Of a DNA stretch of 64,000 nucleotides, positions 5,560 through 46,700 are shown in pieces; positions within the stretch are counted from its first letter, which is position 1; every line of letters starts with the position of its first letter. The translations under genes and the position numbers were made by a program. Origin of the DNA: Reticulascus tulasneorum (Eukaryota > Ascomycota > Sordariomycetes > Glomerellales > Reticulascaceae); assembly GCA_001557505.1 (NCBI GenBank), contig LSAX01000001.1, positions 372,001 through 436,000 on the forward strand, read 5' to 3'. Under the pieces are notes generated by a model. That model was not told where the DNA came from and made no database searches. It saw only the letters and a program-made list of their open reading frames with translations.

Positions 5560-7167
5560 ATGCGGCTCATCAATCTCAAGACTTTGAAGCTTGAGGACTT
5601 TATCGGCGATGCAAGTACACCAAAATACGCTATCCTGTCGCACACATGGGGCGCAGGAGAAGTTACCCTACAAGATGTCCTCAGCCTTACCCCCGATGAG
5701 CTAAAAAAGAAAGCCGGTTGGACCAAGATCACTGGATTCTGCGATGTTCTCAAGGACCAAAGCCGTCCGTTCGATCCGGTAGAGTACGCATGGGTGGACA
5801 CTTGCTGCATCGACAAGACCAGCAGTGCAGAGCTGTCGGAGGCCATCAACTCCATGTTTCGCTGGTATCGGAACGCCGCATACTGCATCGTCTTCCTTGC
5901 AGATGTCAAATGCGACGCATTAAACAAAGTAGGTGACGAATTCGAGAAGTCCAGATGGTTCACGAGAGGCTGGACCTTGCAAGAACTCCTCGCGCCCCTG
6001 GATGTCCAGTTCTTCGACCAAGATTGGCAATGGATTGCAAACAAGCCCGACCTGGCGGGGAGGATCTCCAAAATTACGGGAATCGACGAGGACACGGTTA
6101 TATGGGGTGATTGGTCGACCGTCAACATTGCTCGGAGAATGGCTTGGGCCGCCGGTAGGCAGACGACTCGGCTCGAAGACATGGCATATTGTCTTCTTGG
6201 CATCTTCGACGTCAACATGCCCATGCTGTATGGAGAAGGCGAAAAGGCGTTCATCCGGCTGCAGGAGGAGATTTTGAAGGAGACAGACGACCACTCTATC
6301 TTTGCATGGGATGCAACAGACAAAGATCCGTCGATAAAGATTGTGGGCGCCCTTGCAACACACCCGTCTCAATTTCGGGACTGCGCCGCCTTGGAGTCTC
6401 ATCCAACTCAAGGAGATCCCGTAGCTATCACCAACCGAGGCATTCAGATGCAGCTTCCAATTATCGAGCAACAAGTGAACCCGGGCGAGAGCCTCGGAAT
6501 TCTCTGTTGCAGTGTCGGTGGAGATCTCGGCTCCAGCGTTGGCATCAAGTTGCTCGCTGATCCGACCAATCCTTCAATGTTCAGTAGGGTTCGCGGGGCA
6601 CCCATGACCATCCCTCTACGGGCACCCGATGAACTTCGCAGAAGGGCTGTTTTCTTAACAAAGAGAGACCGGACCACATCGGCCCCTCAAGACATTAGCA
6701 AATGCTGGCTTAAGGTGTCGGGGGGGTTGACAGAAGACTCCAATTGCGAACCAATTCGAGCGTATCCGCCAGCATTCTGGAAGTTTAGCCCAAAGACCAG
6801 AAGCATGACTATGAGTTTTCCTGACGACGCTTCGTTGCGGCCTACACTCGCAGCGGTCCACTTCAAAGTCAACGGCTCGGCTGACGAATTCGCAGTAATT
6901 CTCTCCATAGACGTGGCACATCGGCAGGGGAAGGTTGGAGCGCTTTTGTTGCCTCAGGGATTGTCAGTTGATGAAGTAGAGCATGTACTCAAGGTAGTCC
7001 TCGAGAGACCTGCGGTCGTTGCCAAGTCTAATACCGGCAATCTGAGTCTGCCAACGGTTGACGTAACTGCGCATATTGTGTTGCAGCTGGTCCGTGGATT
7101 ATACATGTTTATCGCTTCAGTCGGCTGCACTCCGAGGCTTAAAGGAGGACTGGCAGGAGGCAAGTGA
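5560..7167 (+). CDS. HET-domain (heterokaryon incompatibility) protein
   Basis: Single exon, 535 residues. The N-terminal HET domain is clear: YAILSHTWG at 23-31, WVDTCCID at 78-85, a SRWFTRGWTLQELLAP block at 131-146, then the YCLLGIF..MPMLYGEG block that closes the domain in the MRLINT..-type subfamily. HET domains trigger programmed cell death after fusion of unlike hyphae and are related to TIR domains. The roughly 300 residues after the domain carry no motif I recognise (no NACHT, WD40 or ankyrin). The ATG at 5560 gives the family's usual opening (MRLINLKTLKLEDF). Neighbours are a probable hAT relic upstream and a convergent ankyrin/zinc-finger gene downstream. Confidence 0.9.
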   Translation: MRLINLKTLKLEDFIGDASTPKYAILSHTWGAGEVTLQDVLSLTPDELKKKAGWTKITGFCDVLKDQSRPFDPVEYAWVDTCCIDKTSSAELSEAINSMFRWYRNAAYCIVFLADVKCDALNKVGDEFEKSRWFTRGWTLQELLAPLDVQFFDQDWQWIANKPDLAGRISKITGIDEDTVIWGDWSTVNIARRMAWAAGRQTTRLEDMAYCLLGIFDVNMPMLYGEGEKAFIRLQEEILKETDDHSIFAWDATDKDPSIKIVGALATHPSQFRDCAALESHPTQGDPVAITNRGIQMQLPIIEQQVNPGESLGILCCSVGGDLGSSVGIKLLADPTNPSMFSRVRGAPMTIPLRAPDELRRRAVFLTKRDRTTSAPQDISKCWLKVSGGLTEDSNCEPIRAYPPAFWKFSPKTRSMTMSFPDDASLRPTLAAVHFKVNGSADEFAVILSIDVAHRQGKVGALLLPQGLSVDEVEHVLKVVLERPAVVAKSNTGNLSLPTVDVTAHIVLQLVRGLYMFIASVGCTPRLKGGLAGGK

Positions 7168-7497: not shown

Positions 7498-10400
7498 CTA
7501 CAGCACTACAATTTGACGCCGGCCGCAAGCATGTGCTCGTAAGTAGTCTCGGCGGGTAAAGCCTCGGTGGCATACCCGACAATTGTACTTTTTCTTTTCA
7601 TGTTTCTCCCGTCGGTGCCGCAGGTAGTTCACCCGAGTAGAGAACCGGCGATTACACTCTATGCAGGTCTGAGGCGCAAACATTTCCCTGCCGTCGATTG
7701 GGACAGGAGCTGCTGGGCTTGCAGACGATGAAGCAACCGGGAGTCGCCCACGAGACTGTGGCGATGACATATCGTTAGATGAGTTTGTTGTTGTTATGTT
7801 GCTGCCTGGGCTCTCGCTATCTTCTTGGCTTGATAAGACGGTCGAGACTGTTGGACGGCTAGAGACACTCATTTCAGGCCGAACCGCGACAGGCTCTGCG
7901 TGATTTACGAACCATCTGATGTGGAAGCTTTCGTCCTTGACATTGAGACCAAGATATGTCTCCAAGACTTGGCAGCTTCCCAGGAGAATCTGAGCAAGAT
8001 TGCTGCAGTCTGGCGTGGTTCGGATGCGGGACACAAGCCCCATGACGTTTTCGCCAGAGTTACCAAGAACTCGAGTTCGAAGCCCTAGGAATATGGTCAG
8101 ACCTGGAGTTCCAATGCGCAGAGACTGCGAGGGTTTCTTCGAAGTAGGGTTTGACTTACACATGAGGAAGATCAGTAATATAATGAAAATCGCGCCGGTC
8201 ATCAACAACACCAGCTTCACGTCCATCCAAGCGGACCCCGAGGAACAGTGATCGTGTATAATTTCTTGTCCCCCGGGGTCTGGTTCATCCTTGGAATCAT
8301 CGTCCGGTGGGTCTGGGTCGATGGGGAAAGCCCTGCTAGCATTCAGGTTCGGATTCTCCTGTCGCTGTCGCCATCTCCACTGACTTCGCTCGAGGCCCAG
8401 TTGACGAGTGCCCTCCAGTCCGAAGAGGTCCCTCACCGCCCCGACCAAACTCGATACCAAGCCCTGTGCGTATTGGAGCAAGTTCTCGAAAGCTGGATCG
8501 ATATCTGGCTTGAGCTCGGGTCCTGCGGAAATTTCGACGCCCCAGATCCCTCGAACAGCTTCCTTGTAAAGCTGGAATTCTTGTTCTCGCTCAAAGAACA
8601 AGGTGCCCCACCGCCGCAGGTCGTGCCCAAACTTCAAGGAGTACTCGGAGACCGTGTAGAAGTCGAGCACCTCTGAGGCTGCCCTGCAAAAGATGAGAAA
8701 GGCAAGAACCTTTCCGAGGTCTCTCGGAGCCCGCCCTCGGGAAATGTCTCGCAGAGTGTCAATGCCAGATTGATAAGCCCTTGAAGAAGTAGCAAGCTGT
8801 TGCCGGACCAACCTCAAACCGGGACAGGACTGCATGAAGCTGGTTGCAGCCCGGTGTTGGACGTTAAATTTCATCCTTGTCACTCTGATGGCGTGCTGGC
8901 TTCTATGATCACTAAATATGTCATCTCCGAGCGCTCTAGACCTCTTGAACTGTAAAATATGACACCATAGTTCTTTTCTCGGTCCTTCCCAGCCACACCA
9001 GAAATTATCAGTGACCTTTGCTCCACGATTAAGTAGTAATCTGATAATACTTTCCTGCCGCCCGCTGGCTGCAGCATGAAGTGGTGTGACTCCCGTGTCG
9101 GTAGCGCTATTGACATCTGCGCCTCGATCGAGCAGTAAGCTGGCGATATTCTCGTGGCCTTTAAACGCGGCATTATGAAGGGCTGTAATACCTTGATTAC
9201 AAGCCTGGTTGATATCTGCGCCTCGATCGAGGAGTAGGCTGGCGATATTCTCGTGACCCTCTAATGCGGCGTCATGAAGGGCCGTAATACCGTCATTGCG
9301 AGCCTGATTGACATCTACGCCTCGATCGAGGAGTAGGCTGGCGATATTCTCGTGGCCCTCAAACGCGGCATTATGAAGGGCTGTAACACCTTGATTGCAA
9401 GCCTGGTTAATATCTACGCCTCGATCGAGTAACAGCCTGACGATACTCTCGTGACCCTTTAATGCGGCGTCATGAAGGGCTGTTAAACCTTGATTGGTAG
9501 CCTGGTTGATATCTGCGCCTCGATCGAGTAGTAACCTGACGATATTCTCGTGGCCATAATATGCGGCGCCATGAAGGGCTGTAAAACCTTGATTGCAAGC
9601 CTGGTTGATATCTACGCCTCGATCGAGTAACAACCTGACGATACTCTCGTGACCTTCTACTGTAGCGTTATGAAGGGCCGTAATACCGTCATTGCGAGCC
9701 TGATTGACATCTGCGCCTTGATCGATCTCTCTTCGGAGCGCATCCTCATCACCAGCGGCTGCCATCTCCCAGAAAGTCTGATTTATCTGATCAAGGTCTC
9801 GTCTGGCTGTCTCTCTATGGGCGGCAGCTGGACACGATCCGACATCGGAGGGGTCAAAGACATCCATCTGGGAGTCACCTGTGTCATTAGGGGCTAGACC
9901 CTCCAGAAGAGTGATGTCATCTTCGAGCTGGCGGTGTTTGAATGCTTTCCAATGTTCAAATGTCAGGAACCCGGACTTGTAGAGTTTTTGGATTCCGAAA
10001 GACTTGAAGATTTCACTATCAGTGAGAAACTGGTCTACCAGTAGGTGAAGAGAGGCAACAAGCGGAGGTACACATCCCGGTTCAGGTTTGTCGATGAGAT
10101 TGTCTAGCTGCGTCTTCAGCTGGTCGTACTTAGCTAGGACTTTGAGACCATCAAGTGTAACAGTGATTGGAAACAGCTCGCTTTGGTCCAGTGCATCGAG
10201 TCCCACAACATCAAGGACGGTGTTGGCAAGCGATTCATCGTAGAAGTCAATTGCAAGTCGCCCTGACTCCTTTTTGACGACGAATGCAAAGTCACTCAGC
10301 TGGAGGCGGCGACAATAACAGCTGGTCGAGCAAGGCTTATCCGTTTCGATGTCTATGTAGGTTCCGTCGCCGTACGAGTCACCGACATAGGTTCGAGAGC

Positions 10401-10846
10401 TTGTCAAGTCAGTACTTGAAAATACGAGACTTGGGATTAGAGGTCAACTTACTCTTCAAACGTCTCCATGAAACGGAATTTGTGCTTTCCGAGAGAGGCA
10501 CCTTGGCGATATGGACAAGCCGACTCGAAGTGGTTTGGACTGGTGAGATTGAAAGTGGTATCCTGAGCCCAATCGGGAGGAGGGCAAGTTATTGGTGGAC
10601 ATCCGGGATCGGTATCGATTGCGAATGGTGGCACTGCATCTGGGTCAGGCGAGAAGTTGTCGAAGCTGAATGAGTCGTTCAAAGGATCGTTCAAAGGATC
10701 CTCAACAGACCCGGGTCCAGGGACATGCCTAGACAGTACATCAGAATGGGCGGGAGGCTCTGCGCTTCCTTATTGAATTACACTTACTCTTCGGAGCCCC
10801 ACGGCGACCAGAACCCGCCAGGGAATGGTGGACCAATCGTTGACAT
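7498..10846 (-). CDS. Ankyrin-repeat / transmembrane / C2H2 zinc-finger protein
   Basis: Four exons: 10788..10846, 10453..10728, 8160..10399, 7498..8084 (1053 residues; phases close). Introns: 10729..10787 (GTAAGT..TCTAG), 10400..10452 (GTAAGT..ACAAG) and 8085..8159 (75 nt, GTAAGT, CTGACC branch, CCTAG). The last is a multiple of three, so the frame stays open if it is retained. Order of parts: acidic/proline N-terminus; a Cys-containing N-terminal domain I do not know (CSTSCYC); seven full 33-residue ankyrin repeats plus a degenerate first half at about 322-578 (TALHNAA, LLLDRGADINQ); a hydrophobic helix at about 836-858 (LVLLMTGAIFIILLIFLM); a Ser-rich stretch; and two C2H2-like fingers at about 999-1043 (CIECNRRFS..H, CRVCHRGFT..HAC). 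Start chosen at the only in-frame ATG upstream of intron 1. Combining a membrane helix with terminal fingers is unusual. It may be a sensor or regulator, and the function is unknown. Confidence 0.8.
8085..8159 (-). other. Frame-preserving intron after the transmembrane helix
   Basis: 75 nt, donor GTAAGT at 8159, CTGACC branch, CCTAG acceptor at 8085. It contains no stop in frame, so a retained form would add 25 residues right after the membrane helix. Confidence 0.6.
9001..9693 (-). repeat. Seven tandem 99-bp near-identical ankyrin-coding units
   Basis: The string cctcgatcgag recurs every 99 bp (about 9122, 9221, 9320, 9419, 9518, 9617) and the translated units differ at few positions (x-x-G-x-TALH-x-A). 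Such internal identity points to recent duplication or concerted evolution, as in repeat arrays of fungal incompatibility proteins. Confidence 0.9.
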
Positions 10847-12065: not shown

Positions 12066-12072
12066 AAAAAAA
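12066..12072 (-). terminator. Pol III terminator of tRNA-Lys
   Basis: Seven consecutive T on the minus strand, 16 nt past the 3' end of the tRNA. Confidence 0.75.
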
Positions 12073-12124
12073 GAACACTCGGGAATTGAGCCCGATATGG
12101 GGGTCGAACCCATAACCTTCAGAT

Positions 12125-12141
12125 GTCTATGGAAGATCCCA
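12125..12141 (-). other. Canonical tRNA intron at 37/38
   Basis: 17 nt, TGGGATCTTCCATAGAC, located one base 3' of the anticodon, the standard nuclear tRNA intron site processed by the tRNA splicing endonuclease. Confidence 0.8.
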
Positions 12142-12160
12142 TAAGAGTCTGACGCTCTAC

Positions 12161-12220
12161 CTGAACCGAAGTTAGCCTTAATTTTGATGTCACAATTTTT
12201 TTCCCAAATGTGACACTTAC
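12161..12220 (-). other. Spliceosomal-type intron inserted in the tRNA D-loop
   Basis: 60 nt with donor GTAAGT (12220 down), branch GGCTAAC (12171..12177), and acceptor TTCAG ending at 12161. These are the same signals and length as protein-gene introns in this window. An internal inverted repeat (TGTCACA at 12209..12215 against TGTGACA at 12188..12194) can form a hairpin. GGTA is repeated at both junctions. Its seven-base A run on the sense strand would not stop Pol III. Confidence 0.7.
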
Positions 12221-12238
12221 CGATTGAGCTAATCGGGC

Positions 12239-44921: not shown

Positions 44922-46700
44922 ATGCAAACCAAGTTCGCTGCCCTCGCCGCCCTTGTGGCTGCCGCCCGCGCTCAGCAGGTGTGCACACAGACTCCCGAGA
45001 CGCACCCAGCCTTGACCTGGCAGAAGTGCGCTGCCGGCGGGACTTGCAGCAATGTCGCAGGCTCAGTCACTATCGATTCCAACTGGCGATGGACTCATAC
45101 CCTCCAAGGCACCACCAACTGCTACGACGGTAACTCGTGGAACACTCAGCTCTGCCCCGATGGCAAGACTTGCGCGCAGCAATGCTGTGTTGAGGGTGCG
45201 GAATACGCTGCCACTTATGGCGTAAGCACCAGCGGCAACGCCTTGAACCTCAAGTTTGTCACCGACGGCGCATACAGCAAGAACATTGGTAGCCGACTGT
45301 ACCTTATGGAAAGCGACACCAAGTACCAGATGTTCACTCTGCTCGGCAACGAGTTCACCTTCGATGTCGATGTGGCCAACATTGGCTGCGGCCTGAACGG
45401 TGCCCTCTACTTCGTCTCCATGGACCAGGATGGTGGCCTAAGCAAGTTCTCCACCAACAAGGCTGGTGCCAAGTACGGAACGGGATACTGCGACTCCCAA
45501 TGCCCCCGTGACGTCAAGTTCATTGACGGCATTGTAAGTTCTGGCTCTCGCAGGGGACTCTTTTCAGGCATTCGCTGACTTTTCTCCACCAGGCCAATGT
45601 CGTGGGCTGGGATGGCTCTAGCAACGATGCCAACGCTGGTATCGGCGAGTTGGGCGCTTGCTGCGCTGAGATGGATATCTGGGGTAAGTTTAGCCACCAA
45701 CCCAAACCGCTTCCAAGTAACTGACAGGGAGAACAGAGGCAAACAACATCGCCACGGCGTACACTCCCCACCCGTGTCTCAACTCGGCCTATCACTCCTG
45801 CACGGGAGACGCCTGCGGTGGAACCTATTCCTCCGACCGATACGCCGGCGACTGCGACCCAGATGGCTGTGACTTCAACAGCTACCGACAGGGCAACAAG
45901 ACCTTCTACGGCCCCGGCTCCGGCTTCACCATCGACACCACCAAGAAGGTCACCGTCGTCACCCAGTTCATCAAGGGCTCTGACGGCAACCTGTCTGATA
46001 TCAAGCGATTCTACGTCCAGAACGGCAAGGTCATTCCCAACTCGCAGTCCACCATCGCCGGCAACCCTGGAAACTCCATCACCACCGACTACTGCGATGC
46101 CCAGAAGACCGTCTTCGGCGACGTGGATATCTTCAAGAACAAGGGCGGTCTGGCCCAGATGGGCAAGGCTGTCGCCGCGCCCATGGTTCTCGTCATGAGC
46201 TTGTGGGATGACCACTACGCCAACATGCTCTGGCTTGACTCTACCTACCCCGTCGACGCCAGCGGCCCTGGCAAGGAGCGAGGAAGCTGCGCTACCACGT
46301 CCGGTGTCCCATCTGAGATTGAGGTGTCTGAAGCGGACTCGACCGTCCAGTACAGCAACATCAAGTACGTGTTCAATCCATACCCTTCCTGATTGGTAAA
46401 TACTGACCTACGCTCCACAGGTTCGGACCCATTGGCTCCACCTTCAACTCCGGCAGCGTGCCTCCTGTAGGAAGCAGCTCCAGCAGCACCCGTGTCTCCT
46501 CCACCAGCAGCCGAGTCACCTCTTCCACTCGAACCTCGAGCACGATGCGCACTACCACCTCTGCTGCTCCTCCAGCTACCGGCACCGGCGTTGCGCAGCA
46601 CTGGGCCCAATGTGGCGGTATTGGATGGAGCGGCCCCACTGTCTGCGCTTCGCCGTACACTTGCACAAGGGGCAATGACTACTACTACCAGTGCTTGTAA
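44922..46700 (+). CDS. cbh1: GH7 cellobiohydrolase I with CBM1
   Basis: Four exons: 44922..45533, 45593..45683, 45737..46364, 46421..46700 (536 residues; phases close; introns GTAAGT, GTAAGT, GTACGT). Signal peptide [17 protein letters not shown], then mature [14 protein letters not shown]. The GH7 catalytic core contains the WRWTH and [10 protein letters not shown] blocks and the catalytic triad in EMDIWEAN: Glu230 nucleophile, Asp232, Glu235 acid/base. KFGPIGSTF closes the core. A Ser/Thr/Arg linker ([14 protein letters not shown]) leads to a CBM1 of four Cys ([25 protein letters not shown]). It releases cellobiose from cellulose reducing ends outside the cell. The long active-site loops of cellobiohydrolases (rather than the shorter endoglucanase type) appear present ([19 protein letters not shown]). 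Symbol is by family; orthology not tested. Confidence 0.95.

Follow-up and report, generated by a model that had tools for sequence, protein, structure and literature searches.

Introns in nuclear tRNA transcripts are described as being removed by an endonuclease and a ligase, while those of mRNA are removed by the spliceosome (PMC3400036). Introns in the D arm of tRNA genes are on record for archaea, nucleomorphs, and Cyanidioschyzon merolae (PMC4090602), and the D and T introns of C. merolae are supposed to leave before the anticodon intron (PMC9602550). Fungal spliceosomal introns are reported to have a branch site RCTRAY located 6 to 36 nt from the 3' splice site, and introns of the U3 gene, which the same paper calls a Pol III gene, are given as common in the Pezizomycotina (PMC5832005). 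Open-licence PMC titles and the beginnings of abstracts, a scope outside which most subscription papers fall, yielded, among the matches listed, no report of a nuclear tRNA gene that carries a spliceosomal intron. Here, we describe two tRNA-Lys(CUU) genes of Reticulascus tulasneorum in which the canonical intron is accompanied by a 60-nt insert in the D loop.

The window, the whole stretch of 64,000 nucleotides that was analyzed, contains a single Rfam match at the gathering threshold, a tRNA (RF00005) at positions 12089 to 12238 of the minus strand that scored 46.9 bits against a cut-off of 29. All features of this gene, copy 1, lie on the minus strand and are given in its own 5' to 3' order. 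An 18-nt exon (GCCCGATTAGCTCAATCG, tRNA positions 1 to 18, window 12221 to 12238) is followed by the 60-nt insert (GTAAGTGTCACATTTGGGAAAAAAATTGTGACATCAAAATTAAGGCTAACTTCGGTTCAG, running from GTAAGT to GGCTAACTTCGGTTCAG, 12161 to 12220), a 19-nt exon that extends from G19 to A37 and carries the anticodon CTT (GTAGAGCGTCAGACTCTTA, 12142 to 12160), a 17-nt intron (12125 to 12141), and a 36-nt exon from position 38 to the discriminator base (ATCTGAAGGTTATGGGTTCGACCCCCATATCGGGCT, 12089 to 12124). ARAGORN places the 17-nt intron at the canonical position 37/38. The 60-nt insert lies elsewhere, between G18 and G19 in the D loop. Removal of both introns gave a cloverleaf with a CUU anticodon in Rfam and ARAGORN, in copy 1 and in the second copy described below, and the joined 73 nt of copy 1 were called tRNA-Lys(ctt) by ARAGORN. 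When only the 60-mer was removed, the ARAGORN call depended on whether introns were allowed: with them it was Lys(ctt) and an intron (38,17), without them tRNA-Ile(tat). With the 60-mer in place, it found no tRNA in bacterial mode and a tRNA-Pro(tgg) with a 58-nt intron when introns were allowed. These calls agree with the original prediction, made from the letters of the window, that a tRNA-Lys(CUU) gene has its D loop split by a 60-nt GT-AG insert and also holds a 17-nt intron at 37/38. The same prediction had called the joined tRNA flawless with all stems paired, which describes the cloverleaf of copy 1 as aligned by Rfam but not the minimum-energy fold of the bare 73-mer, which contains the acceptor and D stems only. 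An unmodified tRNA not rarely misses the full cloverleaf in a minimum-energy fold.

The Pol III signals of copy 1 are intact. Box A (TAGCTCAATCGG, 12220 to 12231) and the box B core (GGTTCGACC, 12102 to 12110) were assigned from the promoter box consensus. Box A is unbroken in the DNA across the 5' junction because the first base of the intron doubles as its last G. The gap between boxes A and B is widened to 109 nt (copy 1) and 118 nt (copy 2). There is no TTTT inside the gene in either copy, and a T run lies downstream of both. The terminator of seven T residues that had been predicted after copy 1 is present at 12066 to 12072, 17 to 23 nt downstream of the gene, as a putative Pol III terminator; the corresponding run in the second gene has 10 T residues.

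Joined 73-mer BLAST of the 42.84-Mb genome (35 contigs) found one further locus, on contig C2, where query positions 18 to 37 and 38 to 73 matched at 100% and the match ended at position 18. This locus is a second two-intron tRNA-Lys(CUU) gene on another contig, which is new in this analysis (C2:3970374-3970532, minus strand, Rfam tRNA 46.1 bits). It carries its own 60-nt D-loop insert (GTAAGCATCACAATTGAAAAAAAAATGTGATTCGAACAATTAAGACTAACACCTATTCAG, C2:3970455-3970514, minus strand) at the same insertion point as in copy 1. Its 37/38 intron is 26 nt long, reported by ARAGORN as i(38,26) once the insert was left out; with the insert in place and introns allowed, ARAGORN called copy 2 a tRNA-Ser(aga). 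The exons of the two genes are identical at 73/73 nt, while the D-loop inserts, of equal 60-nt length, are identical at 40/60 positions in an ungapped alignment. Flanking similarity is short: 3' of the genes, it covers 23 columns, of which 21 are identical (score 36), and 5' of them it consists of GAAGTC, with no longer collinear match between the two loci within 300 nt.

Complete identity of the exons, interleaved with introns that have diverged, suggests that selection maintains both genes as tRNA-Lys(CUU). The chance of 73 identical exon sites at an insert-like divergence is about 1e-13 ((2/3)^73, calculated by hand), a rough figure since the insert is also constrained. Gene conversion is an unconvincing source of the exon identity, since three separate stretches of 18, 19, and 36 nt would need to be converted and the introns between them skipped. 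The identical position of the insert in both genes suggests that the insertion is older than the gene duplication. Taken from these comparisons, both loci look like working genes from which the insert is removed, rather than a fresh insertion in a dead copy.

Both inserts contain a 5' splice site GTAAGY, a branch site RCTAAC with a spacing of 11 nt between the branch A and the intron end, and then TTCAG. In copy 1, these are GTAAGT (12215 to 12220), a putative branch site GGCTAAC (12171 to 12177), and TTCAG (12161 to 12165); the second gene has GTAAGC and GACTAAC, with equal spacing, and the same 3' splice site. The U2-type layout (5' GTRNGY, branch RCTRAY, 3' YAG, branch 6 to 36 nt from the end) is thus present in both copies. 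Shuffling reproduced a loose layout of the three signals in 1/400,000 trials for insert 1 and 0/400,000 for insert 2, with a motif that was chosen post hoc. Directly after the 5' site, an exact inverted repeat in copy 1 (5' arm TGTCACA, 12209 to 12215; 3' arm TGTGACA, 12188 to 12194) is predicted to fold into a hairpin of 7 bp; the hairpin of copy 2 has 6 bp, with A-T in place of one G-C pair. Common to both inserts despite their divergence are GTAAG, the hairpin (6 bp, one compensatory change), CTAAC at 11 nt from the end, and TTCAG. Signal bases were kept between the copies at 13/15 positions versus 27/45 elsewhere in the insert, which is not a significant excess (Fisher P = 0.052), and the fold z-scores of the inserts were weak (-1.77 and -1.51; 10/200 and 15/200 shuffles folded equally well). 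Since GGTA is present at both junctions of the copy 1 insert, five cut registers are possible, and one alone yields GT...AG. The GGTA repeat is too short to separate a target-site duplication from splice-site make-up.

For comparison with coding genes, a simple predictor was run on 193,781 nt of genome, partly overlapping, and gave seven introns of 50 to 75 nt (median 59) with a branch spacing of 9 to 17 nt (median 12), of which 6/7 begin with GTAAGT; a stricter run on the window alone gave three. As the predictor requires the motifs, length and spacing alone are informative. The insert size of 60 nt and branch spacing of 11 nt are inside the host range of this small sample. TTTT occurs in 2/7 predicted coding introns and 0/2 inserts, numbers too small to mean anything. 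The signals, length, and branch spacing of the insert fit those of mRNA introns. The idea of a spliceosomal-type intron was strengthened by a second gene with retained signals, while the degree of signal conservation by itself stayed short of significance.

Insert-free copies were sought throughout the genome. A 30-mer spanning the uninterrupted D loop had no match with up to three mismatches, and the 73-mer BLAST found no Lys(CUU) locus beyond the two genes. The pattern GTAGNGCNNNNGACTYTTA had two matches, which are these genes (reversed control, 1), and the D-arm-independent pattern CTCTTAN{6,36}AGGNNNNNGGTTCRA had five (control, 1), the same two genes and three loci at which Rfam found no tRNA, one of these also being searched at a lax threshold. 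Other intact tRNA-Lys(CUU) copies, which had been named beforehand, together with an absence of spliced reads, as what would make the gene a pseudogene, did not emerge from these searches. Two is a low number of Lys(CUU) genes for a fungal genome of 43 Mb, so a strongly diverged further copy might have been overlooked. For tRNA-Lys(UUU), three genome patterns gave 7, 2, and 6 matches (reversed controls, 11, 8, and 16), and Rfam found no tRNA in any of the six matches of the third pattern or in two of the seven of the first, one of these two being covered through a locus of the third pattern. AAG accounts for 103/150 Lys codons in eight long, uncurated open reading frames of the window.

Patterns for other interrupted tRNA genes gave no further candidate. 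The D-loop-intron pattern GGTANG..CTAAC..AGGTANNGC had eight matches, two of which are the Lys genes, and its reversed control also had eight; the remaining six bore no likeness to tRNA by eye in the printed match. The pattern CTAAC..AGGTTAGNGC had two matches (control, 10), neither with an Rfam match. Because these patterns span two D-loop types only, other interrupted tRNA genes may exist in this genome. The interrupted-gene patterns had no match in collections of prokaryote contigs and viral contigs, as expected for such collections.

A genome-wide Rfam tRNA survey scored 63 of 1,362 candidates, with 61 matches listed. Eight of the listed matches are on large contigs, neither Lys(CUU) gene being among them, and these are seemingly single genes, no two alike; at this coverage of 63/1362 candidates, they hint at a tRNA-poor nuclear genome. 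The other 53/61 listed matches are on contigs C8, C10, C13, C14, and C26 to C31, where the same genes are repeated in both orientations. Five of these tRNA-rich contigs are 16.6 to 46.7 kb long. The group is probably mitochondrial DNA in overlapping or rearranged assembled pieces.

The window also contains protein-coding genes. A GH7 cellobiohydrolase gene with relatives in the PDB is located at 44922 to 45740 on the plus strand; homology ends at residue 205 of its first open reading frame, at the predicted start (45534) of a 59-nt GTAAGT...CAG intron; the next predicted intron, of 53 nt, starts at 45684. Long open reading frames at 5560 to 7167 (plus strand) and 7498 to 10407 (minus strand) presumably encode a HET-domain protein and an ankyrin-repeat protein, respectively, from their appearance by eye. 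One window protein has its best relatives in Colletotrichum (up to 75% identity) and then Verticillium (65%), which points to the Glomerellales. Another has its nearest relative in Zopfia (78%) and was perhaps acquired by transfer.

We propose that both Lys(CUU) genes have, in the D loop, a U2-type spliceosomal intron that is spliced from the Pol III transcript before the cut at 37/38, a reading that we consider likely from the combined sequence evidence. Pol III would transcribe the gene via the intact boxes A and B and terminate at the T run. The spliceosome would then excise the 60-nt intron as a lariat, the branch being the A that precedes the last C of CTAAC. RNAfold predicted no D stem while the insert was present; in both copies, TAGCT of exon 1, the 5' strand of the D stem, paired with the branch region of the insert. 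Both precursors without the insert were predicted to form a cloverleaf whose anticodon-intron arm is long. The D arm and body would fold only after the D-loop intron is removed, and the predicted pairing of TAGCT could hide the branch site and could regulate or hinder splicing. The tRNA endonuclease is described as measuring from the tRNA body and contacting the D arm (PMC4090602), from which we infer that the spliceosome would act first. The Sen complex, measuring from the tRNA body, would then remove the 37/38 intron. Reading of AAG by the cognate tRNA would then hinge on the spliceosome. We favor, with somewhat less assurance, the broader proposal that the tRNA for the main Lys codon is wholly spliceosome dependent, in that every Lys(CUU) gene has borne the intron since before the duplication, maturation runs from spliceosome to endonuclease, and translation is coupled to splicing capacity.

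The competitor that deserves most weight, although we regard it as unlikely, is removal of the insert by the tRNA splicing endonuclease and ligase, with the GT-AG signals a coincidence or a relic. Endonuclease-type D-arm introns are described in archaea and Cyanidioschyzon (PMC4090602; PMC9602550), the splicing route of noncanonical nucleomorph introns is given as unknown in one of these accounts (PMC4090602), and both inserts here form a hairpin. The dual endonuclease cut that had been raised for copy 1 lost ground in that no full bulge-helix-bulge was found: the 4-bp central helix was absent in five registers of two copies in two arrangements, with at most 2/4 central pairs in one arrangement and, in the other, 3/4 central pairs together with 0/3 outer pairs, the latter arrangement being assessed for its central and outer pairs. 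It kept some ground in that the eukaryotic enzyme can cut bulge-helix-bulge substrates and is said not to require paired splice sites strictly (PMC4090602). Against it, the diverged inserts nevertheless have the 5' site, branch site, and 3' site in common. It is improbable that both genes are silent or pseudogenes, destroyed by the insert, with AAG read by another tRNA. Eukaryotic D-arm insertions are mostly regarded as pseudogenes in the literature cited (PMC4090602), and tRNA-Lys(UUU), which might share in reading AAG by wobble, was not located by the three patterns. This silent-gene option, which the original prediction had left standing, is weakened by a second gene with identical exons and an insert that has diverged while keeping its signals; exon identity of this extent would hardly survive insert-like drift, and the genome searches found no other Lys(CUU) gene to read the codon that dominates the window's Lys codons.

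Spliceosomal intron removal is normally coupled to Pol II, and the acting polymerase at both loci is predicted from sequence. The intron might be spliced from Pol II read-through or a minor share of transcripts, with the tRNA released by RNase P and tRNase Z. We give this little credence, since intact boxes A and B, the lack of an internal TTTT, and the T run after both genes form the layout of a Pol III gene. Least of all do we expect a tRNA-Pro gene with one long intron. This is how ARAGORN named copy 1 with introns allowed, and the reading is contradicted by the call of copy 2 as tRNA-Ser(aga) and by the parts that are identical between the copies, which are exactly the Lys exons. The further suggestion that an introner had landed in copy 1 fared poorly: BLAST of the 60-mer against the genome, with E values up to 10, had one match, itself, and a related insert occupies the same position in a paralogous gene. 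The sensitivity of this search is limited, as the related insert of the second gene was also missed. The insert may still belong to a diverged introner family.

If the insert is a spliceosomal intron, the spliceosome would be able to process, in addition to U6 and U3, a Pol III transcript that is uncapped and highly structured, and its need for Pol II or a cap would become directly testable. The locus would exemplify intron gain by a tRNA gene, and an essential tRNA may require the mRNA splicing machinery to mature. Such tRNA genes would also be open to being missed or misnamed in annotation, since ARAGORN either returned nothing or named the two genes Pro and Ser. According to its description, tRNAscan-SE 2.0 seeks noncanonical introns in archaea and allows a eukaryotic tRNA gene no more than one intron (PMC8450103).

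Among described systems, the U6 snRNA of Schizosaccharomyces pombe resembles these genes as a small Pol III RNA that has a GT-AG intron and matures via splicing of that intron (PMC10484740). It differs in that U6 belongs to the spliceosome itself, and reverse splicing near the catalytic site is the supposed source of its intron. Here, the intron sits in a tRNA, whose promoter boxes are internal, and the single U6 match of this genome, looked at as a second spliced Pol III gene, has no intron. Fungal U3 snoRNA introns are likewise short GT-AG introns with a branch site RCTRAC in a noncoding gene, but have a mean length of 92 nt and are located within the first stem-loop, with no tRNA and no second splicing machine involved (PMC5832005). 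The insert resembles introner-like elements in being a short intron with a hairpin and in having a 4-nt repeat (GGTA) at its two junctions; direct repeats at intron borders are reported to be common (PMC11782384). It differs from them in that the 60-mer has no second BLAST copy and that its relative lies at the same position in a paralog. The D-arm introns of archaea, nucleomorphs, and C. merolae occur, as here, alongside an anticodon-loop intron; those of C. merolae have bulge-helix-bulge motifs, whereas the insert, in which no full motif of this kind was found, has spliceosomal signals instead. The canonical 37/38 nuclear tRNA intron is itself present in both genes, at 17 nt and 26 nt, and the 60-nt insert beside it departs from that type in position, length, and signals.
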